A program made the position numbers and the translations under genes. A stretch of 64,000 nucleotides of DNA, taken from positions 1 through 64,000 of the forward strand of contig JBFMCL010000003.1 of assembly GCA_040754395.1 (NCBI GenBank), given 5' to 3'. Within the stretch, counting starts at the first letter, position 1. Each line of letters starts with the position of its first letter. Shown in pieces: positions 22,429-44,780 of this stretch. The stretch is from Nitrospirota bacterium (lineage in GTDB: Bacteria > Nitrospirota > Thermodesulfovibrionia > Thermodesulfovibrionales > SM23-35). The notes beneath the pieces were generated by a model. The model was not told the DNA's origin, searched no databases, and saw only the letters and a list, made by a program, of their open reading frames with translations.

Positions 22429-22476
22429 CTGCAGGTTATCAGGATATATGAAAAAAGAGATGAAAAAGGAGGAGTC

Positions 22477-22995: not shown

Positions 22996-23053
22996 GGGGG
23001 GCACACCTTAAGCATATTAAGGAATTATACACATTTAAAAAAGGAGAACGACC

Positions 23054-24577: not shown

Positions 24578-24621
24578 TGAGAAAGGAAAAGACCATAAAA
24601 AAATTGTCATCACTATACAGT

Positions 24622-24648
24622 ACAGTCCCTGCGATATGCAGGGACTGT
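24622..24648 (+). other. Perfect stem-loop before the second CBS gene
   Basis: ACAGTCCCTGC (24622-24632) and GCAGGGACTGT (24638-24648) form an 11-bp stem with a 5-base loop, ending three bases before the AAAAGGAGGG ribosome binding site. There is no T run, so it is not a simple terminator; RNA processing, stabilisation of the upstream transcript or translational control are possible. Confidence 0.5.
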
Positions 24649-24664
24649 TCAAAAAGGAGGGATT

Positions 24665-25189: not shown

Positions 25190-25252
25190 TCAAATCCGCG
25201 CATTTTGATGCGTGAGCAAAATTATTGAATTCCGTGAAAGGAGGATAACGCC

Positions 25253-26804: not shown

Positions 26805-27284
26805 ATGCGATACATAGTTATTTTTTTGATTCTCTTCGTACACTGGGTCATTTGGTCCGGCATGCTGGACGCCTTTCATCTTGCGCTTGGCGTCATCTCA
26901 TGCGGCATTGTCACGTTCATGTCGCACGACCTGCTCTTCAAGCGCGAGAAGTTCACCTTCAAACAGTTCACCGAGGTCTTCAGGTTCGCGCTCTATATTC
27001 CATGGCTTATGTACCAGATCATCCTGTCCAACATCCACGTCGCCAAGCTGGTACTGAATCCCGAGCTGCCCATAGACCCGAAATTTGTCTGGTACAAGAG
27101 CAGCCTGAAAACAGAACTTTCGCTGACCACGTTCTCAAACTCCATTACGCTCACGCCCGGAACGATTACTGCGGATATTGTGGACGGCCAGTATTATGTC
27201 CATTGCCTGGACCAGAAGGTCGCAGACGACCTCATGAGCGGAGACATGGAAAAAAAGGTAGCTCACGTATTTATGGAGGATTAG
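26805..27284 (+). CDS. mrpE: Mrp antiporter subunit E
   Basis: 159 residues, MnhE/MrpE family. Two or three N-terminal membrane helices are followed by a cytoplasmic domain with the family pattern LTTFSNSITLTPGTITADI. It is an accessory subunit of the multisubunit Na+(Li+,K+)/H+ antiporter. Starts after AGAGGGGC, 37 bases behind the second DASS gene, and ends one base before mrpF, placing the transporter genes and the Mrp genes in one apparent operon. Confidence 0.95.
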   Translation: MRYIVIFLILFVHWVIWSGMLDAFHLALGVISCGIVTFMSHDLLFKREKFTFKQFTEVFRFALYIPWLMYQIILSNIHVAKLVLNPELPIDPKFVWYKSSLKTELSLTTFSNSITLTPGTITADIVDGQYYVHCLDQKVADDLMSGDMEKKVAHVFMED

Positions 27285-27285
27285 T

Positions 27286-27594
27286 ATGGAGAACTTCTTT
27301 ATAGGAACCGGTTTAGCTCTGGGCTTTCTGACACTGCTCTGTCTCTACCGGGGGATATACGGCCCGACGGTGCTTGACAGGATTATCAGCATCAGTGTCA
27401 TCGGGACAAAGACCACGGTAATTCTCCTTCTGATGGGGTTTATTTACCGGAGGGCGGATATGTTTGTGGACATCGCTCTCGCGTATGCGCTCCTGAACTT
27501 TGTTGCCACCCTGTCTGCGGCGAAGTTCTTCCGCACCCGGAAGAGTATAGTCCCGGGCCACAAATACTTTAAAGAGCGGGAGGTCAAGGAATGA
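27286..27594 (+). CDS. mrpF: Mrp antiporter subunit F
   Basis: 102 residues with three predicted membrane helices; MnhF/MrpF family, with the RGIYGPTVLDRIISI segment conserved in the family. A small membrane subunit of the Mrp antiporter. GGAGGATT ends just before the ATG. It overlaps mrpG by four bases (ATGA), as expected for a tightly coupled operon. Confidence 0.95.
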   Translation: MENFFIGTGLALGFLTLLCLYRGIYGPTVLDRIISISVIGTKTTVILLLMGFIYRRADMFVDIALAYALLNFVATLSAAKFFRTRKSIVPGHKYFKEREVKE

Positions 27595-27920
27595 TAACAG
27601 CAATCTCCATAATACTTGTCCTGACCGGCGTCTTTTTCTTCTTCACGGCAACCGTCGGGCTTCTCCGCCTGCCTGACTTCTACTGCAGGATGCAGGCGAC
27701 CGGAAAGGGCGATACCCTCGGCGCATTTCTTACCGTAACGGGCCTGGCTCTCTATAATCTGAGTGACGGGCTGACCCTGGCAGCGGTGCTGGTGAGCCTG
27801 AAAATCATGTTCATTGCCGTCTTCATCTTTGTAGCAAACCCCACTGCCACCCATGCCATAACCAAGGCCGGCCTCGACTGCGGTTTTGAGCCGTGGACAA
27901 AAGATGGGGGGGCAAAATGA
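27591..27920 (+). CDS. mrpG: Mrp antiporter subunit G
   Basis: 109 residues with three membrane helices; MnhG/MrpG family signature LLRLPDFYCRMQATGKGDTLG. A small membrane subunit of the antiporter. It starts in an ATGA overlap with mrpF and ends in an ATGA overlap with the next gene. Confidence 0.95.
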   Translation: MITAISIILVLTGVFFFFTATVGLLRLPDFYCRMQATGKGDTLGAFLTVTGLALYNLSDGLTLAAVLVSLKIMFIAVFIFVANPTATHAITKAGLDCGFEPWTKDGGAK

Positions 27921-28162
27921 TCTGGCAATTAGACATCCTCTTTCTCAGCCTTGTCGTCATCTGTGCTATAGCCGCCATTTCTGTTAAGGACCTCCTTAGT
28001 TCAGCCATCCTTCTCGGGGCTTACAGTTTCCTTATGTGCCTGCTCTGGACAGAGATGGGCGCGGTCGACGTTGCCTTCACCGAGGCTGCTGTTGGCGCAG
28101 GAATCAGCACCGCATTCTTTATCGGCGCCATATTCCAGACGACAAGGAGGACAAAAGATTGA
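27917..28162 (+). CDS. MrpA C-terminal-like subunit (MbhD-type, DUF4040)
   Basis: 81 residues, about three helices, with the TEAAVGAGISTAFFIGA motif of MbhD-type domains. In classical MrpA this domain lies in the C-terminal part of the large subunit; here, as in membrane-bound hydrogenase and some archaeal Mrp operons, it is a separate gene. The start at 27917 lies in an ATGA overlap with mrpG. It overlaps the following gene by four bases (TTGA). Confidence 0.9.
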   Translation: MIWQLDILFLSLVVICAIAAISVKDLLSSAILLGAYSFLMCLLWTEMGAVDVAFTEAAVGAGISTAFFIGAIFQTTRRTKD

Positions 28163-28428
28163 AATTTTTTGCGTTTATCACTGTTCTCTTCACGGGTGCG
28201 CTCCTGATTTACGGCACGGTGGATATGCCCGACTGGGGTGATCCAAATTCGCCTCCGAACAGTCACGTCTCCCCGAGGTATCTTGAAGAATCGATCGAGA
28301 AGACCGCGACACCGAATGTGGTGACTGCGGTACTTGCGGATTACAGAGGATATGACACTCTCGGTGAAACCGCCGTAATCTTTACCGCAGGGGTCGTCTG
28401 TATCATCCTACTGAGGAGGGTCAAGTGA
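28159..28428 (+). CDS. MrpA C-terminal-like subunit (MbhE-type), TTG start
   Basis: 89 residues: an N-terminal helix, a periplasmic-type loop with DWGDPNSPPNSHVSPRYLEE, and a C-terminal helix ending ILLRRVK. This corresponds to the MbhE-like end of MrpA. TTG at 28159 is the natural start: AAGGAGG lies eight bases upstream, and the start overlaps the previous stop as TTGA. A longer open frame from 28036 overlaps the previous gene and is not family-like. It overlaps mrpB by four bases (GTGA). Confidence 0.88.
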   Translation: MKFFAFITVLFTGALLIYGTVDMPDWGDPNSPPNSHVSPRYLEESIEKTATPNVVTAVLADYRGYDTLGETAVIFTAGVVCIILLRRVK

Positions 28429-28880
28429 AAGAGAGATATGAAGACGTAACCATAGAAACAATCTGCAGGCTCCTCATCCCTCCCATACAGCTGTTCGCCC
28501 TGTATGTCATCGCCCACGGCCATTACAGTCCGGGAGGCGGCTTTCAGGGAGGGTGCATCCTTGCTGCGAGTTTTATCATGATGTTTATTGCCTATGACAT
28601 AGGAGAGGTAAAAAGGCGGATGCATGAAAAGCGCAATACAGTATTATGCTGTGTCGGGGTGCTGATATACGCGGGAATCGGTCTGCTCTGTCTCATACTC
28701 GGTGCGAATTACCTTGACTACGGGATCCTCCATACAATTCTCCCTGCGTATCCCGCAAAGGCGCGTGCGCTCGGGACACTGGGCATTGAGATTGGGGTGG
28801 GAATTGCTGTCATGTCTGTCATGATCTCGATATTTCTGAACATCGCCACAGCAGGCGAACATGAAGGAGAGCCGGAATAA
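28425..28880 (+). CDS. mrpB: Mrp antiporter subunit B (GTG start)
   Basis: 151 residues, four helices; MnhB/MrpB family with HGHYSPGGGFQGG, the conserved family motif. GTG at 28425 overlaps the preceding stop as GTGA. The stop TAA shares its last base with the ATG of mrpC (TAATG). A core membrane subunit of the antiporter. Confidence 0.95.
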   Translation: MKERYEDVTIETICRLLIPPIQLFALYVIAHGHYSPGGGFQGGCILAASFIMMFIAYDIGEVKRRMHEKRNTVLCCVGVLIYAGIGLLCLILGANYLDYGILHTILPAYPAKARALGTLGIEIGVGIAVMSVMISIFLNIATAGEHEGEPE

Positions 28881-29287
28881 TGGATACCATTCAATTTATC
28901 ATCAGCAAATTCAATTACTGGGTGTATATCGTGCTCATGATGATAGGGTTCTACGCCATGATTGCAAAGAAAAACCTGGTAAAGAAAATTGTCGGCATGA
29001 ACATCTTTCAGACCGCAATTATCCTCTTCTTCATCTCCACATCATCAAAAATGGGCGCAACCATTCCTATTATTCAAAGCCCTCATGGAGACGCCGCAGG
29101 TCAGGTAGTCAATGTTGCCCAGTATGCCAACCCGCTGCCCCATGTGCTGATGCTTACCGCTATCGTAGTCATGGTGAGCACCTTCGGTGTTGCCCTGGCA
29201 CTGCTTGTATTGATATACCGGGAATATAAGACGTTCGAGGAGGACGAAATCTATGAGACGCTGGAAGTGCTGAGGTTGCGGAAATGA
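28880..29287 (+). CDS. mrpC: Mrp antiporter subunit C (NuoK-like)
   Basis: 135 residues, three helices, homologous to NuoK of complex I; the middle segment has NIFQTAIILFFI and the end has VLMLTAIVVMVSTFGVALAL. Longer than many MrpC proteins (about 110-115) through an insert around residues 60-80. It overlaps mrpD by four bases. Confidence 0.95.
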   Translation: MDTIQFIISKFNYWVYIVLMMIGFYAMIAKKNLVKKIVGMNIFQTAIILFFISTSSKMGATIPIIQSPHGDAAGQVVNVAQYANPLPHVLMLTAIVVMVSTFGVALALLVLIYREYKTFEEDEIYETLEVLRLRK

Positions 29288-30807
29288 TTACACAATCACC
29301 TGCGCTTTTAATCATAGTTCCCCTAATCGCATCGCTCGTTTGCCTCCTTCTCGGAATGTTCAGAAGAAACCTCTGCCAGCCCTTTGTTGTCGTTGTGCTC
29401 GGCGCCTGTGTGATTCTTGCGTTCGATATCATGGGAACCGTTCTCAGTGACGGCGTAATCCGCTACCGTCTCGGCGGATGGGAACCGCCCTGGGGCATTG
29501 AATACCTCATAGACCACCTGAACGCGTTCATCGCCATTATTATCACTTCCATCAGTTTTATCGTGGCCATATTCTCACGAAAGAGCATTGAACAGGAACT
29601 GCCTGAAGGCAAGATCATTTATTTCTATACCATCTACCTCCTGCTCATCACCGGGCTTCTGGGCATTGTGGTGACAGGCGATGTTTTCAACATTTATGTG
29701 TTCCTCGAGATCGCTTCACTTGCAGGGTACGCGCTTATCGCGTTGGGAAAAGACAGGGCCATCCTTGCCAGTTTTGAATACGTCGTCATGGGAACGATCG
29801 GCGCATGCTTCTATCTTCTTGGTGTCGGATACCTCTACATCGTCACAGGATCCCTGAACATTATGGACCTTACCCTTCTGCTCCCGAACCTCTACCACTC
29901 CAAGGTAGTATTAATCGCCTTTGCCTTCTTCATGGTCGGCATCGCAATCAAGATTGCGCTCTTTCCGCTCCATGTATGGCTCCCTGATGCGTACACCTAT
30001 GCCCCTTCAACAGTGAGTGCGCTGGTTGCGGCAACAATGACGAAAGTCGGAGCTTATGTAATGATGCGCATCATGTTTACAGTCTTCCAGCCGTACTTCT
30101 CTGTAGAGCTCCTTCCGGTTACGACCATTCTCGGCTGGGTTGCAGCTGCTGCCATGATGTTCGGCTGCATACAGGCCCTCGCCCAAACCGATCTCAAAAG
30201 GATATTGTGCTATATCCTGATCGCCGAAGTCGGGTATATCGTCCTCGGGGTCAGCGTAGCGAACAGAACAGGATTCACGGGTGCACTCCTCCATATCCTG
30301 AATGATGCGGTCATGATGGCAAGTCTCTTCCTGATCGCAGGAGCCATCTACTACAAGACCGGGACAAGGAACGTCACTGAATTCAGGCAACTGAACCAGA
30401 AGATGCCCGTCACCATGGCATGCTTTGTGATAGCCGCCCTCTCTGTGGTGGGAGTACCGCCTACCTGCGGGTTTTTCAGCAAGTGGTACCTCGTGCTTGG
30501 CGCCATCGATGCCAGGCAATGGTTGTTTGCGCTCCTCCTCCTCGTGAGCAGCCTCCTCGTTGCTATCGTATTTTTCAAGATTATCCAGACAGTATATTTT
30601 GCCCCAACCGTGGAGGCTGCTCATGTTCGCCATAAAGGTTCCGGGGAAGAGCATGCCGGGCACCACCAGGCACATGTTAAGGATGAAGCCCCAGCAAGCA
30701 TGATGGTTCCCATATTCATCACTGTCGCAGGAATATTGTTGCTGGGTATTTTCAGCGGCAAGATTATTTCAACCGTAATCCAATTTGCGGTACCTAAAGG
30801 GTTTTAA
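29284..30807 (+). CDS. mrpD: Mrp antiporter subunit D (first antiporter-like subunit)
   Basis: 507 residues, about 14 helices, Proton_antipo_M family (NuoN/NuoM/MrpD). Key ion-path features are visible, including KIALFPLHVWLPDAYTYAPS and LKRILCYILIAEVGYI. Before the last helix there is a histidine-rich cytoplasmic loop (HVRHKGSGEEHAGHHQAHV). It is one of three large antiporter-like proteins in this operon. Starts in an ATGA overlap with mrpC. Confidence 0.95.
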   Translation: MITQSPALLIIVPLIASLVCLLLGMFRRNLCQPFVVVVLGACVILAFDIMGTVLSDGVIRYRLGGWEPPWGIEYLIDHLNAFIAIIITSISFIVAIFSRKSIEQELPEGKIIYFYTIYLLLITGLLGIVVTGDVFNIYVFLEIASLAGYALIALGKDRAILASFEYVVMGTIGACFYLLGVGYLYIVTGSLNIMDLTLLLPNLYHSKVVLIAFAFFMVGIAIKIALFPLHVWLPDAYTYAPSTVSALVAATMTKVGAYVMMRIMFTVFQPYFSVELLPVTTILGWVAAAAMMFGCIQALAQTDLKRILCYILIAEVGYIVLGVSVANRTGFTGALLHILNDAVMMASLFLIAGAIYYKTGTRNVTEFRQLNQKMPVTMACFVIAALSVVGVPPTCGFFSKWYLVLGAIDARQWLFALLLLVSSLLVAIVFFKIIQTVYFAPTVEAAHVRHKGSGEEHAGHHQAHVKDEAPASMMVPIFITVAGILLLGIFSGKIISTVIQFAVPKGF

Positions 30808-30818
30808 CAGGAGAACGT

Positions 30819-32378
30819 ATGGAAGTTGTGAACTCAATTAGACCGGTTTTAGCGATTACAGTATCTCTGGTTGCAGCCTGTCTCATCCTGCTTACGGGAG
30901 AACGTTCAAGGAATCTCAGGGAGTTCTGGACGATTCTTGCAGCCTTTGTAAAATTCTCGATCGTCATGTCCATGGTCCCCTTCATTCTTGAGGGGAAAGC
31001 CCTTGAATATACGGTCTTCACTATTGCCCCCGGTCTCTCCATCGGGTTCAGGGTGGATGCGCTCGGGATTTTCTTCGGGATCACCGCATCGTTCCTTTGG
31101 ATCATCACATCGTTCTACTCTATAGGATACATGCGTTCACTGAATGAACATGCACAGACACGCTATTTCGCATGTTTCGCCATTGCGCTCTCTGCAACGA
31201 TGGGTGTTGCATTCTCCGCCAATGTCTTTACGATGTTCCTCTTTTATGAGATTATCACTGTCTGCACATATCCCCTTGTTGCCCACAAGGAAACCCCTGA
31301 GGCGATCAGAGGCGCGAGGAAATACCTCACGTATCTGCTGGGAACATCAATTGGGTTCCAGCTGTTTGCCATATTTATGACGTATAGCATAACCGGAACA
31401 CTTGCGTTCTCCTATCAGGGCATATTCGGCGAGGCGCGAGGGGTTGCAGGCGATACCCTCATCATTATCACGTTCATCCTGTTCATGGCAGGGATTACAA
31501 AAGCCGCGATGATGCCGCTCCATGGTTGGCTTCCTGCGGCAATGGTTGCCCCCACGCCTGTCAGCGCACTGCTCCATGCAGTTGCTGTCGTAAAGACCGG
31601 CGTGTTCGTCGTGGTTAAAGTCGTAGTCCATGTATTCGGTATCAATCTTCTCTGGGAACTCGGCCTCGGCACAGCCCTTGCCTACTTTGCCTCGTTTACT
31701 ATTGTCACCGCTTCAATCATCGCCCTGACCCAGGACAACCTCAAGGCGCGTCTCGCCTACTCTACGATCAGCCAGCTTTCCTATGTGATACTCGGTGTTG
31801 CGCTTCTTACACCATCTGGCATCACAGGGAGCATTATGCATATCGTGCTGCATGCCTTCGGCAAGATCACCCTCTTCTTCACTGCAGGGGCAATCTATGT
31901 CGCAGCCCACAAGACAAAGGTCAGCGAACTCAACGGAATTGGCAGGGAGATGCCTTTTACGATGGCAGCCTTTACCATCGGTGCGCTCTCCATGATCGGC
32001 ATCCCTCCTATCGGAGGATTTATCAGCAAATGGTATATAGCGCTGGGAGCTATAGAAGCACACCAGCTTCCGATAATCCTCGTGCTTGTATCGAGCACGA
32101 TCCTTAACGCATGTTACTTCCTGCCCATTGTGTATGCCGCATTCTTCAAGGAACCAGACACAGCTCACCACCACGAGCACGCTGATGCACCGGCGCATGG
32201 CGTGGCATATGCGGGGAGTCACAATCCTCACTCAGAGCGCAAACTCCATGAGGCGCCGGCTATCATGGTAATTCCCTTAATGCTTACGGCGCTCGGCACC
32301 ATCATTCTGTTTTTTGCACCAGATTTCTTCCTGAATATCACGAGACTCGCGCTTGAATCTTTAATAGGAGGCGTGTGA
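30819..32378 (+). CDS. Second MrpD/NuoM-like antiporter subunit
   Basis: 519 residues, about 14 helices, Proton_antipo_M family: KAAMMPLHGWLPAAMVAPTPVSA and LKARLAYSTISQLSYVILG are the conserved ion-channel segments. Like mrpD it has a histidine-rich loop before the last helix (TAHHHEHADAPAH). It probably takes the place of the NuoL-like part of MrpA. It starts 11 bases after mrpD behind ACAGGAGAACGT. Confidence 0.93.
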   Translation: MEVVNSIRPVLAITVSLVAACLILLTGERSRNLREFWTILAAFVKFSIVMSMVPFILEGKALEYTVFTIAPGLSIGFRVDALGIFFGITASFLWIITSFYSIGYMRSLNEHAQTRYFACFAIALSATMGVAFSANVFTMFLFYEIITVCTYPLVAHKETPEAIRGARKYLTYLLGTSIGFQLFAIFMTYSITGTLAFSYQGIFGEARGVAGDTLIIITFILFMAGITKAAMMPLHGWLPAAMVAPTPVSALLHAVAVVKTGVFVVVKVVVHVFGINLLWELGLGTALAYFASFTIVTASIIALTQDNLKARLAYSTISQLSYVILGVALLTPSGITGSIMHIVLHAFGKITLFFTAGAIYVAAHKTKVSELNGIGREMPFTMAAFTIGALSMIGIPPIGGFISKWYIALGAIEAHQLPIILVLVSSTILNACYFLPIVYAAFFKEPDTAHHHEHADAPAHGVAYAGSHNPHSERKLHEAPAIMVIPLMLTALGTIILFFAPDFFLNITRLALESLIGGV

Positions 32379-32379
32379 G

Positions 32380-32508
32380 ATGCAAAAAGAGGGAGCAGAA
32401 CACCAGGAACTGAAACATGACGCTATACCGGGAGGCAAGGCAGCTTTCTATATAATTGCATCAATAGCGTTCCTTTACCTTGCCATAATATTCCTGAATA
32501 CCCTATGA
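32380..32508 (+). CDS. 42-residue single-helix membrane protein
   Basis: A short reading frame starting ATG at 32380 right after the preceding stop, preceded by AGGAGGCG (32366-32373). It encodes a charged N-terminus (MQKEGAEHQELKHD) and one hydrophobic helix (AAFYIIASIAFLYLAIIFL). Its position between two antiporter subunits, the strong ribosome binding site and the membrane helix suggest a small accessory subunit. I know no named family. Confidence 0.75.
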   Translation: MQKEGAEHQELKHDAIPGGKAAFYIIASIAFLYLAIIFLNTL

Positions 32509-32538
32509 ATGCACATGCAATACATATGATGAGAGGAT

Positions 32539-32808
32539 ATGAAAATGGGAAAAAAAGAACATAGAGAGAAAAAAGAAGATTTTTTTGACAAGCCGAAAAA
32601 TATTAAAGGCCTTTTCCTGTTATTCTGCGCTATGCTTGTGCTTTCTCTGGCAGGTGAATTCTTTATCCACAAACACGTCTTTTTCAAGTGGGAAGAGTGG
32701 CCGGGGTTTTACGCAGCGTTCGGGTTTGTAGCGTTTGTCTGCCTCATACTGGTGGCAAAACACCTCCTGCGTCCCATTGCCGAGAGGAAGGAGGACTACT
32801 ATGATTAA
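32539..32808 (+). CDS. 89-residue two-helix membrane protein
   Basis: A very basic N-terminus (MKMGKKEHREKKEDFF) precedes two membrane helices (about 24-42 and 57-75) and a charged tail. It sits between antiporter subunits and its last codons overlap the next start (32801). Probably an accessory subunit of the same complex; no family recognised. GAGAGGAT upstream supports the start. Confidence 0.8.
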   Translation: MKMGKKEHREKKEDFFDKPKNIKGLFLLFCAMLVLSLAGEFFIHKHVFFKWEEWPGFYAAFGFVAFVCLILVAKHLLRPIAERKEDYYD

Positions 32809-34645
32809 TCCTGTTCCTCCGGCGGCGGTATTCATACTCGGAGCTTTTCTTGTACCCTTCCTGAGGGGGAAGCTGAAAAGTTACTATCTTCTTCTGCTGC
32901 CAATTATCGGTTTCATAAACCTGCTTTCGATCCCGGAAGGCACGCACTGGGTAGTCAATTTCCTCGGATATGACCTCATCTTCGGAAAAGTCGACAGGTT
33001 GAGCCTGTTTTTCGGTTATATCTATCACCTCATATCATTCATCGCGTTCCTGTATGCCTTTCATCTCAAGGATGATTTTCAGCACGTTGCATCCCTCTTC
33101 TATTCCGCAGCTGCGCTCGGAGTGGTCTTTGCAGGCGACCTCTTTTCCCTCTTCATCTTCTGGGAGATCATGGCAGTATCAGCAACATGCCTTGTGTGGG
33201 CCAGAAAATCGAAAAATTCCTACGGGGCAGGACTGCGTTACCTCCTGGTGCATTTATTCGGCGGACTCTGTCTCCTGATCGGAATCATCTTAAACGTATT
33301 CGAGACAGGTTCGATAGAATTCGGCTATATCGGATTGAAGGGACTCTCTTCTCTCCTTATTCTCATCGGCTTTGGAATCAACTGTGCCTGGCCCGGTCTT
33401 CATGCGTGGCTTCCCGATGCGTACCCTGAGACAACCGAAACCGGCGGGGTGTTCATGTGGACATTTACTACAAAGACTGCCATTTATGTCCTCGCGAGGG
33501 CATTCCCCGGCACCGAAGCCCTCATTTGGATAGGCGCAATCATGACCTGTTTCCCGATTTTCTTCGCGGTAATCGAGAACAATCTGCGAAGGGTTCTCTC
33601 ATACAGCCTGATCAACCAGCTCGGGTACATGGTCTGCGGCATCGGCATCGGGACGCAGTTATCGATCAACGGCACCATATCTCATGTGTTCTGCCATATT
33701 CTCTACAAGGCGCTCCTGGTCATGTCCATGGGCGCTGTCATGTACCGTACCGGGAAGATCAACTGTACCGACCTCGGGGGGCTGTACAAGAGCATGCCCT
33801 ATACCACGGTTTTTTGCATCATCGGCGCCGCATCCATTTCTGCCTTCCCCCTGTTCAGCGGCTTTGTCAGCAAGTCGATGGTTGTTGAGGCTGCGGCATA
33901 TGGCGGAATGTCAATCATCTGGCTGCTTCTCATGTTTGCATCCGTCGGTGTGCTTGAGCATGCAGGCATTAAGGTGCCTTACTACGCCTTCTTCTCCCAC
34001 GACTCAGGGATACGGACAAAGGAGGCTCCCCTGCACATGCTTCTCGCCATGGGGATTACCGCGTTTCTCTGTATTTTTATCGGGGTGATACCCGGACCGC
34101 TCTACAGTCTCCTTCCCTATCCTGTAGACTTCGATGCATACACAGCGTCCCACGTCGTGACATCAATGCAACTGCTCATGTTCGGCGCATTTGCATATAT
34201 TCTCCTTGTACTCTCCGGCGTCTTCCCGGGAGAAAGGAGAACAACAATCCTTGATCTTGACTGGTTCTACAGGAAATTCGGTAAAGGGTTTATGTGGTTC
34301 TGCAATGTGCCGCTGACAGGGTTCAGGAATGCCGTGCAAAATTTCTCAGCAGGAACCATAAAGTCCCTTGTGAAATTCAGTTCTGATCCGCTCCTTATCC
34401 CCGAGGTCGTAATACGATACACCCATCTGAATATGTATCAGATCCTGGCGGCAATTTCTCAGTCTGAGAAAATGAAAGAAAAACGGGATGAACTGGAGTT
34501 CAGGGTGAGCCGGCTTGTCAAAATAGCCGAAAGCGGAAGGATCTACGGAGCTGACCTTCCAAAGAGACCCATTGGACTGGGAGTGCTCCTTTCGTTTGTA
34601 TTCATATTCTTCTACATCCTGCTCTATCTGTTATTCATAAGATAG
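32801..34645 (+). CDS. Third NuoL/MrpA-like antiporter subunit
   Basis: 614 residues, about 14-16 helices, Proton_antipo_M family: NCAWPGLHAWLPDAYPETTETGG and LRRVLSYSLINQLGYMVCG are the conserved channel segments. An extra C-terminal region of about 130 residues with an amphipathic, charged stretch (about 540-580) leads to a final membrane helix, resembling the lateral helix extension of NuoL-type proteins. The start at 32801 follows AAGGAGGAC and overlaps the previous gene by eight bases. It ends the operon, before a strong terminator at 34669-34704. Confidence 0.92.
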   Translation: MINPVPPAAVFILGAFLVPFLRGKLKSYYLLLLPIIGFINLLSIPEGTHWVVNFLGYDLIFGKVDRLSLFFGYIYHLISFIAFLYAFHLKDDFQHVASLFYSAAALGVVFAGDLFSLFIFWEIMAVSATCLVWARKSKNSYGAGLRYLLVHLFGGLCLLIGIILNVFETGSIEFGYIGLKGLSSLLILIGFGINCAWPGLHAWLPDAYPETTETGGVFMWTFTTKTAIYVLARAFPGTEALIWIGAIMTCFPIFFAVIENNLRRVLSYSLINQLGYMVCGIGIGTQLSINGTISHVFCHILYKALLVMSMGAVMYRTGKINCTDLGGLYKSMPYTTVFCIIGAASISAFPLFSGFVSKSMVVEAAAYGGMSIIWLLLMFASVGVLEHAGIKVPYYAFFSHDSGIRTKEAPLHMLLAMGITAFLCIFIGVIPGPLYSLLPYPVDFDAYTASHVVTSMQLLMFGAFAYILLVLSGVFPGERRTTILDLDWFYRKFGKGFMWFCNVPLTGFRNAVQNFSAGTIKSLVKFSSDPLLIPEVVIRYTHLNMYQILAAISQSEKMKEKRDELEFRVSRLVKIAESGRIYGADLPKRPIGLGVLLSFVFIFFYILLYLLFIR

Positions 34646-34668: not shown

Positions 34669-34704
34669 CTGAAAGAGTGAGGCTCCGCGGCCTCACTCTT
34701 TCAG
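34669..34704. terminator. Bidirectional terminator between convergent genes
   Basis: CTGAAAGAGTGAGGC (34669-34683) and GCCTCACTCTTTCAG (34690-34704) form a perfect 15-bp stem with a 6-base loop. It ends the Mrp operon and overlaps the 3' end of the convergent CBS gene, including its stop codon. No long T run is present. Confidence 0.7.
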
Positions 34705-35217
34705 TATGTCGTTTGATATCTCATCGAAGAGCTCTATGATTCTGACTATTCCGACCAGTTTTTTCTTGTTTTCCAATACAGGGAGCACATATGCATCATG
34801 TGAGAGCATGATATGCGCAGCTTTTTTCACCGGGTCCTCAGGCTGGACAAATTTCTCTATCGGGACCATTATCTCGCTTACCTGCCTCAATGCGAGTTCT
34901 TTTGCCTCCTTATCAAAAAGGGCATCCCATTCAATCCGTGATGGGGCACCTGTATTTTTTTCCTCAACCTGCACCTTTGCTTCCTTGCCGTATATTTTCG
35001 GCTCAAGACCTTTCAGAATGTTTTTGAGGCTGATGGTTCCCAAAAGATTATACTTTTCATTGAACACCAGGATTACCATGGGACTGGGATATTTTTTTGG
35101 TTTAATGAAAGATGCCTTCACTATTCTTATGGCCTGGCCTATGGAAAACCAGTATGGAATATGAGGATAATCAAATATTCCGGTCATTATATCTTTTACT
35201 TTTTTATCATTCTGCAT
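34693..35217 (-). CDS. CBS-pair protein, FDYPHIPYWF family (copy 3)
   Basis: 174 residues with the family signature FDYPHIPYWFSIGQA, ILVFNEKYNLLGTISLKNILKGLEP, and a second CBS with VSEIMVPIEKFVQPEDPVKKAAHIM and LPVLENKKKLVGIVR. Unlike the other three copies it is not followed by a transporter gene but lies convergent with the end of the Mrp operon. It may serve the Mrp complex or a transporter elsewhere. AAAAAGGAGCG precedes its ATG. Confidence 0.88.
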   Translation of the reverse strand: MQNDKKVKDIMTGIFDYPHIPYWFSIGQAIRIVKASFIKPKKYPSPMVILVFNEKYNLLGTISLKNILKGLEPKIYGKEAKVQVEEKNTGAPSRIEWDALFDKEAKELALRQVSEIMVPIEKFVQPEDPVKKAAHIMLSHDAYVLPVLENKKKLVGIVRIIELFDEISNDILKE

Positions 35218-36602: not shown

Positions 36603-37901
36603 CTAATGAGAAAGTTTCAGGTACTTGATCTTTTTCTGAAGCTGCTGGCGGTAAATGCCGAGCTTTAGCGCAGCATGGGATATATTCCATCCAGACTCAT
36701 TCAGGGCTGAAACAATCGTCTCTTTTTCAACGGACGAAATCGCATCTTTCAATTTAGGCACTATTTTTCTTTTATGGGAATTTGCCCCCATTATGAATGG
36801 CGGCAAATCAGAAGGCAGTATTTCAGGGGTATTTGCCAGAGATACAGCCCTTTCAATGAAATTTTCAAGTTCCCGGACATTGCCCTGATATGAATAGTTC
36901 ATCAGGATATTAAGGGCGTCACCGGTAATTCCCTTAATCAGCAGGTCTTTCCTTTTTGGAGCATGCTTTTTTATAAAATGCTTGATCAGAAGCGGTATGT
37001 CCTGCACTCTCTTCCTCAGAGGAGGGATATGGATATTGATGACATTCAGCCGGTAGAAAAGGTCTTCCCTGAATGTCTCTTTTGTCACAGCCATTTCCAG
37101 GTCTTTATTGGTAGCCGCAATGATCCTCACATTCACCCTTATATGGCTGTTTCCCCCGATTCTCATGATCTCGCCTTCCTGAATTACTCTGAGGATTTTT
37201 GTCTGGAACAAAAGGGAAACATCCCCTATTTCGTCGAAAAATACGGTCCCTCCTTCAGCCAGCTCAAGGATACCCTTCTTCCTCTGCATCGCACCGGTAA
37301 ATGCCCCCTTTTCAAACCCGAACAGCTCCGATTCAAGAAGGGTGTCAGGGATGGCGCTGCAGTTGATAGTCATGAATTCATTTTTGCTTCTCGGACTCCA
37401 CCTGTGAATCGCCCTTGCAACAAGCTCCTTGCCTGTTCCACTCTCTCCCGTAATCAATACATTGCTTTCACCGGCTGCCGCCTTCTTTATCAGCCCAAAC
37501 ACTTCCTGCATCAAAGGGCTCGTGCCTATGATTTCATCAAAACCGCTTTTGTGTTCGAGAATTCTTTTCTTATATCTGCTGATAATCTCGTTGAAGGCTT
37601 CACTCGTCAGCGGTTTTTCCAAATAGTCAATTGCTCCGAGCTTCATTGCCTCAACAGCCAGTTTTGTATTTGGGCCTGAAAAGGTTACTACAGGCATCTG
37701 CTGGCGCAGATCCAGGAGTTTTTTCTGCCATCCCTCAACATCGAGATCAAGAAAGGCAATATCATATCCGTTGAAACCGGGTTCCTTATCCAATAAATTG
37801 CCTTTCTGCCCCGCGTCTTCCGCATGCAGATCAATACTGCCTGATTTGAATAACGAGTATATCTCTTTTTTCTCATTGGAAATGATTAACGCATTAAGCA
37901 T
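36603..37901 (-). CDS. Sigma-54 activator with degenerate receiver domain
   Basis: 432 residues. The N-terminal receiver-like domain (1-120) keeps an aspartate in IAFLDLDV and a lysine in YLEKPLT, but where the acidic pair should be it reads IISNEKKE, so phosphorylation is doubtful. The AAA+ domain (about 128-350) has [17 protein letters not shown] and VFFDEIGD. The C-terminal HTH reads [23 protein letters not shown], with a recognition helix similar to that of the response regulator at 41607. It probably binds the GTGCATT..AATGCAC sites downstream of its own gene. It is last in the apparent operon CBS-DASS-LCIB-regulator. Confidence 0.9.
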
Positions 37902-37970: not shown

Positions 37971-38687
37971 TCATTGCAAGGTTATCTCCTGTTTCATGCC
38001 GCCTATGACCGCATAACACGAGGCAGGCCAGATATAGTTTCCCTCCGGTCCGTGTATCTGTATGCCCGTAATAACAGCGTAATCACATTGTGCTGTATTG
38101 ATAATGGGCTTCAATGTATTTTCGAGGTCCCTCTGGATGACCTTCTGGGCTGTTCTTGTAAGCTCAAGAAGGTCCGGGACATGCCCATAGGGAATCTCCT
38201 GCAATAACCGCATCCTGAGAAGGCTTTGCTCAACGTCTTCATTGTCCATTGCGAGTGTTACCCTTTTTTCAGCCATTTCTTTCTGAAAAGCGTTCAGGGC
38301 ACCACATGCAGAAGACTCTCCTCCCCTTCCTTTCCGCATGCAGACCCCGACCTGCCCCTCGGCGCCAAGCGCTATGTGAGGAAAGGCATAAAAAACATAA
38401 CGTTCCTTGCCGTCTGCATCAGGGGCATGATGCATAGCGGCTATGAGGGCTGTTCTTCCTGCGAAGAACATTCCTGCAAGGCTTGAAAGATTGAACGCTT
38501 CTCCCCATGCGTCTCTGACATGGCTGAAGAACGACTGTGAAATCTCGTCCCTGCATACGTCAACACAGCCGATCGCATTGTCGGCAGTGAAACCAAACTT
38601 GTTCAACGCACTATGTGTCCTTTTGACAAAATCGGCTTCCTGATAGGTTACGGAGAATATTCCTCTGAGTATCGTTTCAAATTTCAT
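37971..38687 (-). CDS. LCIB-family protein (beta-carbonic-anhydrase-like)
   Basis: 238 residues covering the whole LCIB domain first described for the low-CO2-inducible protein B of Chlamydomonas, some homologues of which are active beta-type carbonic anhydrases. Diagnostic stretches: GCVDVCRDEIS (C41, C45, R46, D47), SLAGMFFAGRTALIAAMHHAP (H86, H87), RYVFYAFPHIALG, and GGESSACGALNAF (C128). I take the cysteine/histidine/cysteine positions as the zinc ligands and Arg/Asp as the catalytic dyad, to be confirmed by alignment. No signal peptide, so cytoplasmic. AAGGGAG precedes the start. It lies in an operon with a DASS transporter and a CBS protein, pointing to inorganic-carbon handling. Confidence 0.85.
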   Translation of the reverse strand: MKFETILRGIFSVTYQEADFVKRTHSALNKFGFTADNAIGCVDVCRDEISQSFFSHVRDAWGEAFNLSSLAGMFFAGRTALIAAMHHAPDADGKERYVFYAFPHIALGAEGQVGVCMRKGRGGESSACGALNAFQKEMAEKRVTLAMDNEDVEQSLLRMRLLQEIPYGHVPDLLELTRTAQKVIQRDLENTLKPIINTAQCDYAVITGIQIHGPEGNYIWPASCYAVIGGMKQEITLQ

Positions 38688-38707
38688 ATGGCTCCCTTAT
38701 TGTAAAT

Positions 38708-38752
38708 GAGGTTAAGGCAAAGAATATACAGCTATATATTTGCCCTAACCTC
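38708..38752 (-). other. Long stem-loop between the DASS and LCIB genes
   Basis: GAGGTTAAGGCAAA (38708-38721) and TTTGCCCTAACCTC (38739-38752) form a 14-bp stem with one mismatch and a 17-base AT-rich loop. No T run follows in the direction of transcription. It lies between the DASS stop and the LCIB ribosome binding site, so it may set different mRNA levels for the two genes. Confidence 0.5.
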
Positions 38753-38766
38753 TGTAGTCAATAATG

Positions 38767-40296
38767 CTATTTCAGCGTAACCGGCATGCCCATCAGCGGC
38801 CATATTACCGCTACCGCAAGCGCAACCACTGCCATCAATACTATGCTTGCCGGTATTCCGGCAAGGAAAAACATTCCGGTTGAAAACTGTTTAGACTCAT
38901 ACGCAATGGCATTTGGAGCCGCACCCACCAGAAGCAGAAACGGCATGCCCGCAACCACGAGTGAGGAAAACAGCACGACTTCAGGCGCCACACCCAGGTA
39001 CGGGGCGATGACCAGTGCGACAGGAAGAGAAATCGCAATTGCCGCAACATTCATGATAAAGTTGGTCATTATCATAACAAAAAAGGCTATGCTCAGCACG
39101 AAAATAAACCAGTTTGCCTCCTTGAACATAACAAGCCAGTTGATCGCCAGCCATTTCGCAGCGCCTGTCTCCCACAGACAGAACCCTATGCTCATGGCGC
39201 CGCCGAACAGGAGTATAATATTCCACGGGATATCTTCAAGATCCTTTATCGAGAGGATCTTGAATACAAAGAATATCAGCGTGGCAAGCAGAATAATCGC
39301 TGATTTGTTATACGGCTTCAATGCGGGAATAAAAGACTGCAGAGACAGGAAAATGATTATGCCGAGAACCGCGGCCCCCACAAAGATCTCCTTCCCGGTA
39401 ATCGCGCCCATTTCCTTGTAAAGCTTTTTTGCCTTTTCCCGCAGCCCGGGAATAACCTTCTTTTCCGGTTTGAACATGATAAGCATCATTACCCAGCAGA
39501 GGAAAACCATGACCCATCCGACCGGGAACATGTATTTTGAAAGCTCGAAAAAGGTTACATTTTTCCCGACAACATCATTAAAAAATCCCAGCGCAACGGC
39601 ACCGCGGGCTGCTCCGAGAAGGGTGATTATGCTTCCTGCTCCCGCAACAAACGCCATGCCGATAAACAGTCCTTTCCCGAAGTTTGTCGGCTTGTCCCCT
39701 TCGCCATACAGCGAATATATCGCCATGAGAAGAGGGAACATCGTGGCTGCAACCGCCGTATGCGCCATGATGTGGGCAAGAGCGGCAGTTACAATAAAAC
39801 ACCCCAAATATATCATGCTTGTTTTTTCACCCACAATTGTCAGCATTTTGTAGGCAAGGCGCCGTGTAAGTCCTGTCTTGGTAAACACCATGCCGATAAC
39901 AATCGAGCCGAAGATGAACCAGACTGACGGGTCCATGAAGCTTCTGAAGGCTTCTTTCGCAGGCCTGATCATAAAAAGCGCCTGGAAAACACCGATTGCA
40001 ATGCTTGTAATGCCGATAGGGACAACCTCAAAAACCCACCAGGTGCCTGCAAGAAGGAAAAGGGCTATTGCGGCTTTGCCCTCCCTGCTGAGCGGAAAAT
40101 GCTCTCCCAAAGGGTCAATGGCATCAGGCAAAGGGGGCATGTAGTTGAAAACGAAGAAGAAACTCAAGCCGAGCAGAATAAAAAAAATTCTCTTCCAGTC
40201 AAACTCAATTAGAGTCGGGGCAACGACTATCTCTGCCGGACGCTCTGATATCACTTTTGCACCACCGGGAAAATAAACCTTGGTAACATGTTGCAT
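38767..40296 (-). CDS. DASS (SLC13)-family anion transporter (copy 3)
   Basis: 509 residues, 11 or more helices after a cytoplasmic N-terminus of about 33 residues. It is a more distant relative of the pair at 23054 and 25253: the first hairpin reads MAHTAVAATM (near 177-186) and the second MNVAAIAISLP, again departing from the SNT motifs of characterised DASS carriers. The substrate is therefore unassigned. It is followed by an LCIB-type carbonic-anhydrase homologue and preceded by a CBS protein gene 14 bases upstream, which makes bicarbonate a candidate substrate by inference. AGGAGGACG precedes the start. Confidence 0.88.
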   Translation of the reverse strand: MQHVTKVYFPGGAKVISERPAEIVVAPTLIEFDWKRIFFILLGLSFFFVFNYMPPLPDAIDPLGEHFPLSREGKAAIALFLLAGTWWVFEVVPIGITSIAIGVFQALFMIRPAKEAFRSFMDPSVWFIFGSIVIGMVFTKTGLTRRLAYKMLTIVGEKTSMIYLGCFIVTAALAHIMAHTAVAATMFPLLMAIYSLYGEGDKPTNFGKGLFIGMAFVAGAGSIITLLGAARGAVALGFFNDVVGKNVTFFELSKYMFPVGWVMVFLCWVMMLIMFKPEKKVIPGLREKAKKLYKEMGAITGKEIFVGAAVLGIIIFLSLQSFIPALKPYNKSAIILLATLIFFVFKILSIKDLEDIPWNIILLFGGAMSIGFCLWETGAAKWLAINWLVMFKEANWFIFVLSIAFFVMIMTNFIMNVAAIAISLPVALVIAPYLGVAPEVVLFSSLVVAGMPFLLLVGAAPNAIAYESKQFSTGMFFLAGIPASIVLMAVVALAVAVIWPLMGMPVTLK

Positions 40297-40310
40297 GTGC
40301 CTCGTCCTCC

Positions 40311-40844
40311 TTATTCTTTTACCACAGCATTCGAAATTGTACTGGATAATTCATCAAAGACATCGGTCAATCTCACAACCCCCACGAATTTCTTCCCGTT
40401 TTCAAGAACAGGCATGAAGGTCAAATTCTGATTGACCATGAGATATGCTGCTTTTGTGATCGGATCATCCGGTTTGACAAAATATTTCACCGGCACGACT
40501 GAATCACGAACGGATTTCTCCACCAAACCTTTTGATTCTTTATCGAAAAGGGAATCCCAAATTAGGGATAGCTCTTTTTCTTCTTCCTGAAATCCCTCGG
40601 CCTTTGTTGTCGCCCTCATGAAACGCGGTTCAAGCGCCTTCAAGATATCCTTGAGAGCCAGGGTCCCGACGAGATTATACTGTTCATCGAAAACGAGTGT
40701 TCCCATTGGATGCAGGTTCTTCTCACCCCTGGGCAATGATGTTTTTATCACTTCTATTGCCTGCTTAATCGTGAACCAGTAACGAATATGTGGAAAATCA
40801 GAAATATCGACCATAATATCTTGTACTTTTTTGTGGTTTAGCAT
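40311..40844 (-). CDS. CBS-pair protein, FDYPHIPYWF family (copy 4)
   Basis: 177 residues. The signature is slightly changed (SDFPHIRYWFTIKQA), followed by LVFDEQYNLVGTLALKDILKALEP and a second CBS with VKYFVKPDDPITKAAYLM and MPVLENGKKFVGVVRL. It is the first gene of the apparent operon CBS-DASS-LCIB-regulator and lies 14 bases before the DASS gene. GAGGGGG precedes the ATG. Its role is probably nucleotide-dependent control of the transporter, as for the other copies. Confidence 0.9.
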   Translation of the reverse strand: MLNHKKVQDIMVDISDFPHIRYWFTIKQAIEVIKTSLPRGEKNLHPMGTLVFDEQYNLVGTLALKDILKALEPRFMRATTKAEGFQEEEKELSLIWDSLFDKESKGLVEKSVRDSVVPVKYFVKPDDPITKAAYLMVNQNLTFMPVLENGKKFVGVVRLTDVFDELSSTISNAVVKE

Positions 40845-40973: not shown

Positions 40974-41010
40974 ACGTCTACACAGGGAGGGTCTCACTGT
41001 GTAGACGTCA
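40974..41010. terminator. Terminator after the first universal stress gene
   Basis: GACGTCTACACAG (40974-40986) and CTGTGTAGACGTC (40998-41010) form a perfect 13-bp stem with an 11-base loop. On the minus strand it is followed by TTTTTCCCC, and on the plus strand by ATTTTT. It overlaps the stop codon of the gene ending at 41008. Confidence 0.8.
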
Positions 41011-41445
41011 TTTTTCTGTCGGAACTGTCGCATACGGGCTGCTCCCATATGCAAAGATGCTTGTCTCGAGTCCTCTCACTTTGAGCATCTTCCTGAAAGT
41101 GCTCGCAACGACCTTATACCGTGTCGGGCAGAGTAGCAGGTCGACATTTTCCTCTTTTGCACATTCGATGATCTCCTGTTCGGGATTGCCCTCTCCGGTA
41201 ACGAGAAATGCCTTAATGCCCTTGCCTTCCTCTTTGAGAATCTTCTCTGCTTCCTTCGCATACCGGGATGACTCCCTCCGCGCAATCTCCTCTGCCTGGG
41301 GAATCGCATCATAATCAAGAAACATGTTTCTGTTGAATACATGAAGAACCACAAGCTCTCCGTTGGTTTCTCTTGTTTTCTCCATTCCATACTGCAGTGC
41401 GGTCCTTGCGTGCAAGGTCCCATCATATGCCACTAATACTTTCAT
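41008..41445 (-). CDS. Universal stress protein, single domain, sigma-54 controlled
   Basis: 145 residues, one Usp domain: MKVLVAYDGTLHARTAL at the N-terminus, ELVVLHVFNRN in the second strand, and VDLLLCPTRYK near 105-115. The C-terminal ATP-loop motif of nucleotide-binding Usp proteins (GSxG) appears only partly (AYGSSPYATV). ATG at 41445 is chosen because GGAGG lies eight bases upstream and because the sigma-54 start is near 41481; a longer open frame would begin upstream of the promoter. The N-terminal two thirds is closely similar to the first domain of the stress protein at 44781. Confidence 0.88.
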   Translation of the reverse strand: MKVLVAYDGTLHARTALQYGMEKTRETNGELVVLHVFNRNMFLDYDAIPQAEEIARRESSRYAKEAEKILKEEGKGIKAFLVTGEGNPEQEIIECAKEENVDLLLCPTRYKVVASTFRKMLKVRGLETSIFAYGSSPYATVPTEK

Positions 41446-41491
41446 GTCCGTTCCTCCTTCTTGTTGGAATTCAATTTTCGGATAATGAAAT

Positions 41492-41507
41492 AGCACGTAG
41501 CATGCCA
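41492..41507 (-). promoter_or_regulatory. Sigma-54 promoter of the first universal stress gene
   Basis: Minus-strand sequence TGGCATGCTACGTGCT: -24 GG and -12 GC at correct spacing. Predicted start near 41481, about 36 bases before the ATG at 41445. The arrangement is repeated at the second stress gene (45611-45626). Confidence 0.8.
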
Positions 41508-41545
41508 AACTATTTATTGTTTATTATCAACAAGTTGTACAATAA

Positions 41546-41606: not shown

Positions 41607-42998
41607 CTAATGCGAGTTCGTGAGAGAGGAAATGTCTATTCCGAGGAGTTTGATCTTCTGCTGCAGGTTCTGCCTGTGGATGTTGAGGGATCGTGCAGCT
41701 TCCGATATGTTCCCTTCCGCTTCAATGAGGGCTGCGGTGATAAGCGACTTTTCAAACCGGGACTTTGCTTCTCTGAGGGGCATGATCGGGATAGTTTGCG
41801 CCTCCCCGCTGATTCTCTTGCCCTCCGATATATATTTTGGAAGGTCATCAACCTGCAATATCTGGCTTGATGTGAACGCCATTGCATATTCTATGGCATT
41901 TTCAAGTTCCCTTACATTACCCGGAAAGTGATAGTTCAGCAATGCATGTACCGCTTCTTTGGCAATCCCGGTAACATTTTTGTCGACTGCCTTTCCCTTA
42001 TGTTTCTCGATGAAATGATTGATGAGAAGAGGGATATCCTCAGTTCGGTTTCTCAACGGGGGGAGTTCTATCGGGATCACATTCAGCCGGTAGTAGAGAT
42101 CTTCTCTGAAATTTTTCTCGGCGATTGCCTTTCCGAGGTCCATATTTGTTGCGGCAATTAAACGCACATCAACTGTTCGCGGCATCGTATCCCCCACCTT
42201 GAGGAATTCCCCATCCTGCAATACCCTCAGAAGCTTTACCTGAAGGGTGGGAGCAAGTTCTCCTATTTCATCAAGGAAAAGTGTGCCCCTGTCTGCCTCC
42301 TCCACAAGCCCCTTCTTGTCGGAAACTGCGCCGGTGAACGCACCCTTGATATGTCCGAAAAGCTCTGACTCCAGAAGTCCCTCAGGGATTGCGCCGCAGT
42401 TGACCGTCACAAACTTTCTCCTTGCCCTAACGCTGTTGCTGTGAATGGCTCTTGCAACAAGCTCCTTGCCCGTACCGCTCTCACCCGTAATCAGCACATT
42501 GCTTTCACTCGACGACGCATGCCTCATTACCCTGAATACCTCGTGCATTTCCGGGCTGTTGCCGATGATATTCTGAAATGAGTATCGCGCCTCTATCTGG
42601 GTTCTCAGGGCAATGTTTTCTTTTTCGAGATTCCTTCTCTCCAGCGCCCTCCTGATGGGAAGCCGGACCTCGTCAGGGGTAAAGGGCTTTGGAATATAAT
42701 CGTATATCCCCCTTTTTACGGCGTCCACTGCTGACTGCACTGACGCATACGCAGTAATAATAATGAATATGATGTCGGGGGCGATCTCCTTTACATGCTC
42801 ATAGAGTTCAAGCCCGTCCATCTCGGGCATCTTCATGTCTGATATCATGAGATCAAAATTATTTTTCCTGACCTGTTCAATGGCATCCATGCTGCTTGTG
42901 GTCGTGTACGCCTCTATCCCTTCGGTTTCGAGAATGTCCTGGACCGCAATTAAAATACTTGCCTCATCATCGACGACAATCGCTTTCAGCTTATCCAT
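41607..42998 (-). CDS. NtrC-family sigma-54 response regulator
   Basis: 463 residues. Receiver domain (1-120) is intact: VVDDEAS, the phosphoacceptor in [12 protein letters not shown], and [11 protein letters not shown]+ domain (about 140-370) has [20 protein letters not shown] and LFLDEIGE. The C-terminal Fis-type HTH includes [22 protein letters not shown]. It is encoded directly after its kinase (overlap of eight bases) and between two universal stress genes with identical sigma-54 promoter layout, so these are its probable targets. Confidence 0.94.
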
Positions 42999-44661
42999 TG
43001 ATTGGCAGCCTCACAGTAAACGTTGAACCTTTTTCTATCTCACTACTGACATCGATATCTCCGCCATGTTTTTTTATAATACCATAACTTACCGCAAGAC
43101 CGAGTCCGCTTCCTTTCTCTTTGTCCTTCGTGGTAAAGAACGGGTCGAAAATCTTTCCGAGATTTTCTGCAGGGATGCCGTGGCCCGTATCCGAGAAAAT
43201 GATCTCGACGAATTTGCCGTTCACGCGTGTGGAAACAGCTATATTTCCCGGTGGGGTAATTGAATGGATCGCATTCAGCAGGATATTTGACACCACCTGC
43301 CCGATGCGTGCAGGGTCTGCATAGATCTCGGGAAGATTCTCGGAAAGGTGCAAGGCGAACCCTATATCCTTGAAGGCCTCCTGCGAGACAAGGGACTCGC
43401 ATATCTCAGTGACAGGGCAGTTGACATTCATTCTCATGGGTTTTATGGCTTCATCCTTTGCAAAACTCAGAAGCTGTCTCACGATATCTCTTGCCCTTCC
43501 TGTTTCCTTCACCATCATCCTCAGCCTCTCGCGATTTGGGTGCCCCTCCGGAGTCTTCTCGAGCATCAAATTCGAAAAGGTAAGGACAGAAGTGAGTGGA
43601 TTGCTTATCTCATGTGCAATCCCGGACGCCAGTATCCCAATTGAGGCAAGCTTGTCCGCCTCAACAAGCTGCGACTGTTTTTCCTGCAACTGTTTAATGG
43701 TATCCTCAAGCGAGCCCAGCGCCTGTTTGAGTTTTGTTTCCATTTTATTGAATGACATCTCGAGGGAGGCAATTTCATCATCTTTTCCCTTCACATCGAG
43801 TGTCTCTGAGAAATCACCCATTGCTATCTTCTTTGTTACCTCTTCGAGCTTTTTTATCGGCTCAGCGATGCTCATGGCAAGCTTTGCATTGACGGCTGCA
43901 CCTACTACAATAATTGTCAGCAAAGCGAATATCAGCAGTATCATGGATTTCTTCATCGTCGAATCAATGGCTACCTTTTCCTCCTTAAGGAGGTTCTCAA
44001 GGAGCAACTCTATCTCCCGTGCTTTCAACCTCATATTCCCGACAGAATCATTTTCCTTTTTGTAAAGCTCATAAAGCCTGTCGGTAAGGGCACGATACTC
44101 CTTCAGTGCAGAGCTGTGCGTATGCAGGGAAGCGAAGGTCTTTGCAAAGTTTTCATAGGACTTCTCATCTCTGTATATCATAAGATCTTTCTCATATCTT
44201 CTTAGCGAGGAAAATATCTGGAATTCGTTTCCGCTCAGGGCGTTCTCAATGCTGCCTCCCGCAACCTTCAGCTTGAGTATGTTCTCTTCCTGCAATTTTA
44301 TGCCGGCTACAACTTTATTAAAGAAATCCTCATAGTTGCTTATTATCTCTTTGATCATTTCATAGTTCCCGGGGCCCATTGCTTTTACTATTTCAGTTTT
44401 GAGCTTGATGCTGTCGATATTCGCCTTTAATTGACCCAAGTTGCGCGTGAATGCCTGGAGAGTTTCTTCCTGTCTGTAAAGCAGGTAGTTTTTTTCGTGT
44501 CGTCTCAGCTCACTCAGGATGTGGGTAATGTTATGTGCAGTTTCAACAAGACTAAGTCGTGTTGAAATCGTAAGGAGTTCAGTAAATGCAAAAAACCCGA
44601 TTATCGTGGCAAGTAATACGTATATGCCAAACCCGATAAAAATCTTTTCCCGTATCTTCAT
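42991..44661 (-). CDS. Membrane sensor histidine kinase with HAMP domain
   Basis: 556 residues. First membrane helix about 6-28, a mainly helical extracytoplasmic domain of about 210 residues (four-helix type, as in nitrate/chemoreceptor-like sensors), second helix about 240-262, HAMP (SIAEPIKKLEEVTKKI), coiled coil, phosphoacceptor ASGIAHEISNPLTSVLTF and GHKL ATPase (NAIHSI, DTGHGIP, GSGLGLAV). ATG at 44661 is preferred over a TTG at 44691, which lacks a ribosome binding site. It is cognate to the NtrC-type regulator by overlap. Confidence 0.92.
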   Translation of the reverse strand: MKIREKIFIGFGIYVLLATIIGFFAFTELLTISTRLSLVETAHNITHILSELRRHEKNYLLYRQEETLQAFTRNLGQLKANIDSIKLKTEIVKAMGPGNYEMIKEIISNYEDFFNKVVAGIKLQEENILKLKVAGGSIENALSGNEFQIFSSLRRYEKDLMIYRDEKSYENFAKTFASLHTHSSALKEYRALTDRLYELYKKENDSVGNMRLKAREIELLLENLLKEEKVAIDSTMKKSMILLIFALLTIIVVGAAVNAKLAMSIAEPIKKLEEVTKKIAMGDFSETLDVKGKDDEIASLEMSFNKMETKLKQALGSLEDTIKQLQEKQSQLVEADKLASIGILASGIAHEISNPLTSVLTFSNLMLEKTPEGHPNRERLRMMVKETGRARDIVRQLLSFAKDEAIKPMRMNVNCPVTEICESLVSQEAFKDIGFALHLSENLPEIYADPARIGQVVSNILLNAIHSITPPGNIAVSTRVNGKFVEIIFSDTGHGIPAENLGKIFDPFFTTKDKEKGSGLGLAVSYGIIKKHGGDIDVSSEIEKGSTFTVRLPING

Positions 44662-44780
44662 TCCTATTTCATTGTAACCGAAAACGACCAAGGAAAACAG
44701 AACAGCGCTGAAACGGGAGGGGAATTTCTGCGGGTATTATATTACCGGATACTGTAGCTTAGCCCGCACATGATGCGCTA

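Follow-up and report, generated by a model that had tools for sequence, protein, structure and literature searches.

What might a DASS-fold anion carrier and an LCIB-type carbonic anhydrase homolog be doing side by side in the genome of a Nitrospirota bacterium? The pair lies in a window of 64,000 nucleotides (the whole stretch of DNA that we analyzed) from a nearly complete genome of 2.98 Mb. A first-pass annotation had described four closely spaced minus-strand genes, for a CBS-pair protein, a DASS transporter, an LCIB-domain protein, and a sigma-54 regulator, and had read them as a candidate inorganic-carbon uptake system. We found all four open reading frames in place on that strand, with gaps of 14 bp (CBS/DASS), 79 bp (DASS/LCIB), and 69 bp (LCIB/sigma-54 regulator), but the same-strand run is longer than had been claimed: eight genes, Usp2-HK-NtrC-Usp1-CBS-DASS-LCIB-S54, extend from 45569 down to 36603, in an order kept in a second genome (L079/L133). 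Profile matches agreed with the names given to the carrier, the LCIB protein, and the regulator (the last through its PF00158 activator match). The CBS protein does belong to the CBS family; that it holds a pair of domains is likely but half shown, with only one domain above the Pfam cut-off. The features of the locus are as follows.

21673..26767, plus strand: second DASS module, GntR - CBS - DASS_a - CBS - DASS_b (Pfam; carrier motifs HDA/SNS)
26805..34645, plus strand: Mrp-type Na+/H+ antiporter operon (MNHE, MnhB, Proton_antipo_M, and NCBIfam matches)
34693..35217, minus strand: fourth CBS-domain paralog, between the Mrp operon and the regulator (PF00571, 43.5 bits)
36603..37901, minus strand: sigma-54-dependent regulator (PF00158, 239.7 bits; GAFTGA motif intact; Response_reg below cut-off)
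37971..38687, minus strand: LCIB/LCIC-family carbonic anhydrase-like protein (PF18599, 186.7 bits; 121 homologs)
38767..40296, minus strand: DASS-fold carrier DASS_c (TIGR00785, 199.8 bits; PDB matches NaS1, NaDC3, and VcINDY)
40311..40844, minus strand: CBS-domain protein (PF00571, 49.1 bits; homolog immediately upstream of DASS in the majority of cassettes)
41008..41508, minus strand: Usp-family protein Usp1, upstream of CBS (PF00582)
41607..42998, minus strand: NtrC-type response regulator of the upstream two-component pair (PF00158 and PF00072; 70% identical ortholog in L133)
42991..44691, minus strand: sensor histidine kinase, HAMP-HisKA-HATPase (Pfam; syntenic in L133)

The Mrp operon encodes MrpE, MrpB, MrpC, and three MrpD/A-like subunits, with small F/G-like ORFs between them. 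The tandem CBS-DASS, CBS-DASS module sits directly before it. Divergent from the GntR gene of that module is a gene for a PEP-synthase-like protein (18755-21325, minus strand; PPDK_N and PEP-utilizers), and most relatives have this protein next to their GntR-CBS-DASS-LCIB cassette.

Conserved linkage of the carrier and LCIB genes

The LCIB profile PF18599 was present in 60/396 genomes of the phylum. Within the class (about 167 genomes by hand count), the usual gene order is (GntR)-CBS-DASS_c-LCIB, and because the CBS-DASS-LCIB order recurs in dozens of genomes, it is not a matter of chance. Calling DASS_c at scores above 700 bits, we found a full LCIB in 26 of the 30 class genomes with DASS_c, adjacent to it in 25, versus six of the ∼137 without (Fisher P = 1e-20, uncorrected for kinship). 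The linkage on which the first-pass annotation had staked its proposal is thus conserved. Across 40 loci, the DASS-to-LCIB gap ranged from -37 to 331 bp (median ∼36). One genome (G007) has a DASS_c remnant beside LCIB and two intact copies within ∼21 kb. In another (G058), DASS_c is broken by several stops next to an intact LCIB (L045:1632-3110), which may reflect an assembly error or a decaying carrier.

The pair was also observed in Actinomycetota MAGs (L115 and L118, with L120 having CBS-DASS-Mrp-LCIB) and in two cultured strains, Thermodesulfobacterium thermophilum DSM 1276 (L139) and Thermodesulfobacterium DSM 12571 (L141). Misbinning can explain the taxonomy of MAGs but not that of the two isolates. 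At three Thermodesulfovibrio loci (L162, L164, and L166), DASS is absent and the order is GntR-CBS-MrpE..D3-LCIB. An LCIB tree placed 42 DASS-linked, eight Mrp-linked, and nine other sequences in one clade (support 100/96), and the Mrp-only Thermodesulfovibrio type is nested inside the DASS-linked clade, which fits a loss of DASS. Finally, one family of the order (f3; L087 and L088) has proteins of 265-404 aa that match LCIB_C_CA weakly, over the C-terminal two-thirds only.

Sites of the LCIB protein and the carrier

The LCIB protein falls in the LCIB/LCIC family (LCIB_C_CA, E = 5e-55, against a cut-off of 25 bits), and among solved structures CrLCIB is nearest to it in sequence (E = 5e-43). 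Structure prediction bore this assignment out: the AlphaFold2 model (pLDDT 93.4) matched CrLCIB (5k5w) with a TM-score of 0.82 at 35% identity and PtLCIB4 with 0.83-0.85, and Foldseek ranked CrLCIB, LCIC, and PtLCIB4 first and classical beta-CAs next. The expected zinc ligands Cys45, His104, and Cys128, the feature whose absence was to have counted against the proposal, are all present together with the Asp47/Arg46 pair; C45, R46, D47, E48, H87, H104, R118, and C128 are invariant among the 121 homologs. The motif is CRDE, as in CrLCIB and LCIC; the other structures aligned have CSDE or CCDE. Both CrLCIB and LCIC are inactive as recombinant proteins, and His162 and Arg194 of CrLCIB are disordered in the inactive form (PMC5876011). 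Catalysis by the window protein is therefore not to be assumed from its motif. Mapped by alignment spacing, H87 and R118 appear to match CrLCIB His162 and Arg194.

The carrier matches only Na_sulph_symp/CitMHS profiles, placing it outside the SulP and SbtA families, and clears the curated TIGR00785 cut-off of 198.6 by ∼1 bit. Its fold matches are led by NaS1 and include VcINDY. Because confidence in the DASS_c model is modest (pLDDT 76, residues 411-414 among the poorest segments), our argument about its site rests on alignment. In place of the two Ser-Asn-Thr motifs that serve as the DASS family criterion, DASS_c has A178-H179-T180 (SNT1 of VcINDY) and M415-N416-V417 (SNT2), both invariant among the 25 aligned members. 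With VcINDY site positions taken from PMC5413979, the Na1 site is lost, A/T174 and H179 standing where VcINDY has the side-chain ligands S146 and N151; at Na2, the ligands T373 and N378 have the same residues in DASS_c (T411 and N416), and these do not vary. Sodium coupling would thus rest on Na2 alone. Sulfate in NaS1 is held by Ser139, Thr141, Thr259, and Ser260 (PMC10980263), which correspond to Ala178, Thr180, Ala/Ser229, and Ala230, so that most of these ligands are lost; loop L5 has an invariant Arg231. With the SNT motifs and most NaS1 ligands replaced, the site is neither a canonical dicarboxylate site nor a NaS1-like sulfate site, and the alignment suggests that the substrate may be a small monovalent anion moved with one Na+.

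The loss of most dicarboxylate-binding hydroxyls, suggestive of a smaller or monovalent anion, would also suit uptake of a small organic monocarboxylate, with LCIB handling the CO2 released from it. This type of metabolism uses formate and acetate, but no formate or acetate enzyme was recognized among the neighbors examined beside the cassette, and LCIB also occurs near a BicA-like carrier. We regard this explanation as very unlikely.

Neighboring antiporters and host metabolism

A likely Na+/H+ antiporter (Mrp, or NhaD/NhaB-like) was found at 36/41 DASS-linked LCIB loci, and in relatives Mrp lies directly before or after LCIB. The commonest gene cluster around LCIB, a broad one seen at 58 loci, encodes an ion-transporter-superfamily protein and is usually just downstream. 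One type is a NhaD match (NF038006, 166 bits vs. a cut-off of 80); others resemble CitMHS/ArsB/MamN and match NhaB less strongly, so that an antiport role is less certain for them. Certain Nitrospirota outside the class have, after LCIB, genes for a Tll0287-like protein, a SulP, and a NhaB/MamN-like protein; the SulP scores best against the BicA family (558 bits, under the strict cut-off of 880). A SulP gene also directly precedes LCIB in a Kofleriaceae MAG. In Nitrospira, where BicA clusters with Mrp/NhaB, published work interprets the arrangement as bicarbonate uptake driven by Na+ (PMC7784846, PMC8115632).

The host genome encodes CdhC/AcsB, dsrA, and one beta-CA. Its only three DASS genes all lie inside the window, and a search for the SulP profile family found none in this genome, so that a dsrA-bearing host needs a sulfate carrier from somewhere. 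Could that carrier be DASS_c, with LCIB alongside serving pH or carbon balance? The dsrA gene was present in all 31 cassette genomes tested, in one of them as fragments, and this keeps both sulfate transport and bicarbonate export among the candidates, and NaS1, the top fold match, points the same way, as do the DASS sulfate carriers known in sulfate reducers (PMC5840216). On the other hand, most NaS1 sulfate ligands are replaced, DASS_c is missing from at least 12 relatives that have dsrA, and the absence of SulP makes DASS_a and DASS_b, whose second motif is more usual than that of DASS_c, candidates for sulfate uptake instead. Sulfate import would also leave the linkage to LCIB unexplained, and we consider it unlikely.

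Outward flow, or sulfate/bicarbonate exchange, is a further reading of the same genomes, in which LCIB would hydrate the CO2 of organotrophic sulfate reduction and bicarbonate would exit through the carrier. The hosts have dsrA and CdhC, and the CdhC pathway can operate oxidatively. DASS exchangers have basic residues at their Na+ sites (PMC7553777), reminiscent of His179 at the Na1 ligand position and Arg231 in DASS_c, but the invariant Na2 ligands Thr411 and Asn416 are unlike those of exchangers. The presence of Na+/H+ antiporters next to the cassette is consistent with uptake driven by Na+, and BicA, the parallel system, is an importer; export or exchange is therefore improbable.

As discriminators, host genes were of little use. 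The dsrA gene, found in all cassette genomes tested and in most relatives, cannot settle the question of sulfate; the Wood-Ljungdahl marker CdhC, found in nearly the whole class, was uninformative; and replacement of beta-CA by LCIB was a trend only (9/32 vs. 60/135, P = 0.11).

A candidate bicarbonate uptake route and its regulation

Our preferred reading, with a probability of roughly 0.6, is that Na+ drives the import of bicarbonate and that an LCIB carbonic anhydrase is coupled to this import, which would feed CO2 fixation. The altered DASS site, the neighboring antiporters, and the parallel of BicA and LCIB add support to it. From gene content, linkage, conserved ligands and motifs, and fold, we infer the substrate, direction, coupling, catalysis, and regulation of the system as follows. 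The DASS-fold carrier would move bicarbonate inward together with Na+, and the cytoplasmic LCIB protein, as a beta-type (theta-CA-like) carbonic anhydrase, would equilibrate this bicarbonate with CO2 to supply the Wood-Ljungdahl pathway and further carboxylations. Sodium would be pumped out again by the neighboring antiporter (Mrp here, NhaD/NhaB-like elsewhere). The CBS protein, which the first-pass annotation supposed to sense adenylates, is the likely gate, or presumed regulatory partner, of the carrier, and two sigma-54 regulators and the histidine kinase may set expression.

The sigma-54 regulator next to LCIB, with its weak receiver domain, has an ortholog immediately behind LCIB in L133 and, in L117, two genes farther along; it is likely a local regulator. 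A -24/-12-like site (41507-41492) precedes Usp1, whose true start is likely near 41445; the site has the same position before Usp1 in L133, which suggests a predicted sigma-54 promoter for Usp1-CBS-DASS-LCIB-S54. Over the whole window, sigma-54-like sites were not above chance (21 observed vs. 17.5), and some are credible through position and synteny only. An Rfam search gave no match. Just downstream of the regulator, we noted three 19-bp palindromes, GTGCATT-N5-AATGCAC (36238-36256, 36328-36346, and 36438-36456; 0.15 expected, and 0/100 shuffles had as many), followed by a -24/-12-like site (36172-36187, minus strand) and two small ORFs. In L117, we found a single palindrome of this kind and a similar site. 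The arrangement looks like a putative enhancer-dependent promoter of that sigma-54 regulator.

The import system that we propose resembles BicA/SbtA with Mrp/Nha in cyanobacteria and Nitrospira in combining a Na+-coupled anion carrier, a carbonic anhydrase, and a Na+/H+ antiporter, and LCIB itself occurs near a BicA-like SulP in some Nitrospirota; here, however, the carrier is DASS-fold rather than SulP or SbtA, the carbonic anhydrase is LCIB-type, and the hosts are anaerobes that reduce sulfate and have the Wood-Ljungdahl pathway. Chlamydomonas LCIB/LCIC shares the family, ligand set, and CRDE motif, and the soluble LCIB acts there with a bicarbonate carrier, chloroplast LCIA (PMC7215798); the bacterial system has no pyrenoid, and its carrier is DASS-fold, not LCIA (NAR1.2). 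DASS/SLC13 symporters (VcINDY, NaS1, and NaDC) share the profile, the fold, and the Thr and Asn ligands of Na2, whereas DASS_c has replaced SNT motifs and Na1 side-chain ligands and the extra conserved Arg231. We found no account of the DASS-LCIB pair in the openly accessible literature searched, and by sequence it looks like a previously undescribed bicarbonate uptake route built from different protein families.

A bolder version, which we think rather unlikely, has LCIB acting as a vectorial carbonic anhydrase docked on the carrier or, at loci that lack DASS, on MrpD3; LCIB and its DASS or Mrp membrane partner would then form an energy-coupled trap for CO2/bicarbonate that arose independently of DAB. 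DAB/MpsAB (DabA with NuoL-like DabB) presumably offers a likeness, a beta-CA-like protein paired with a MrpD/NuoL-like membrane protein, for which the counterpart here would be Thermodesulfovibrio MrpD3-LCIB; its soluble partner, however, matches LCIB_C_CA and not DabA, and a full Mrp operon is present.

The cassette is carried by many deep-branching sulfate reducers with a CO2-fixing pathway, usually beside a likely Na+/H+ antiporter, and little is known of how anaerobic Wood-Ljungdahl bacteria obtain inorganic carbon where groundwater and vents are alkaline and poor in CO2. If Na+-driven bicarbonate import is correct, these bacteria would have a concrete uptake system, and bicarbonate would be a further substrate for the DASS/SLC13 fold. 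LCIB, a family known chiefly for its part in carbon concentration by algae, would work in bacteria beside several different anion carriers, and the two cultured Thermodesulfobacterium strains make the idea testable.
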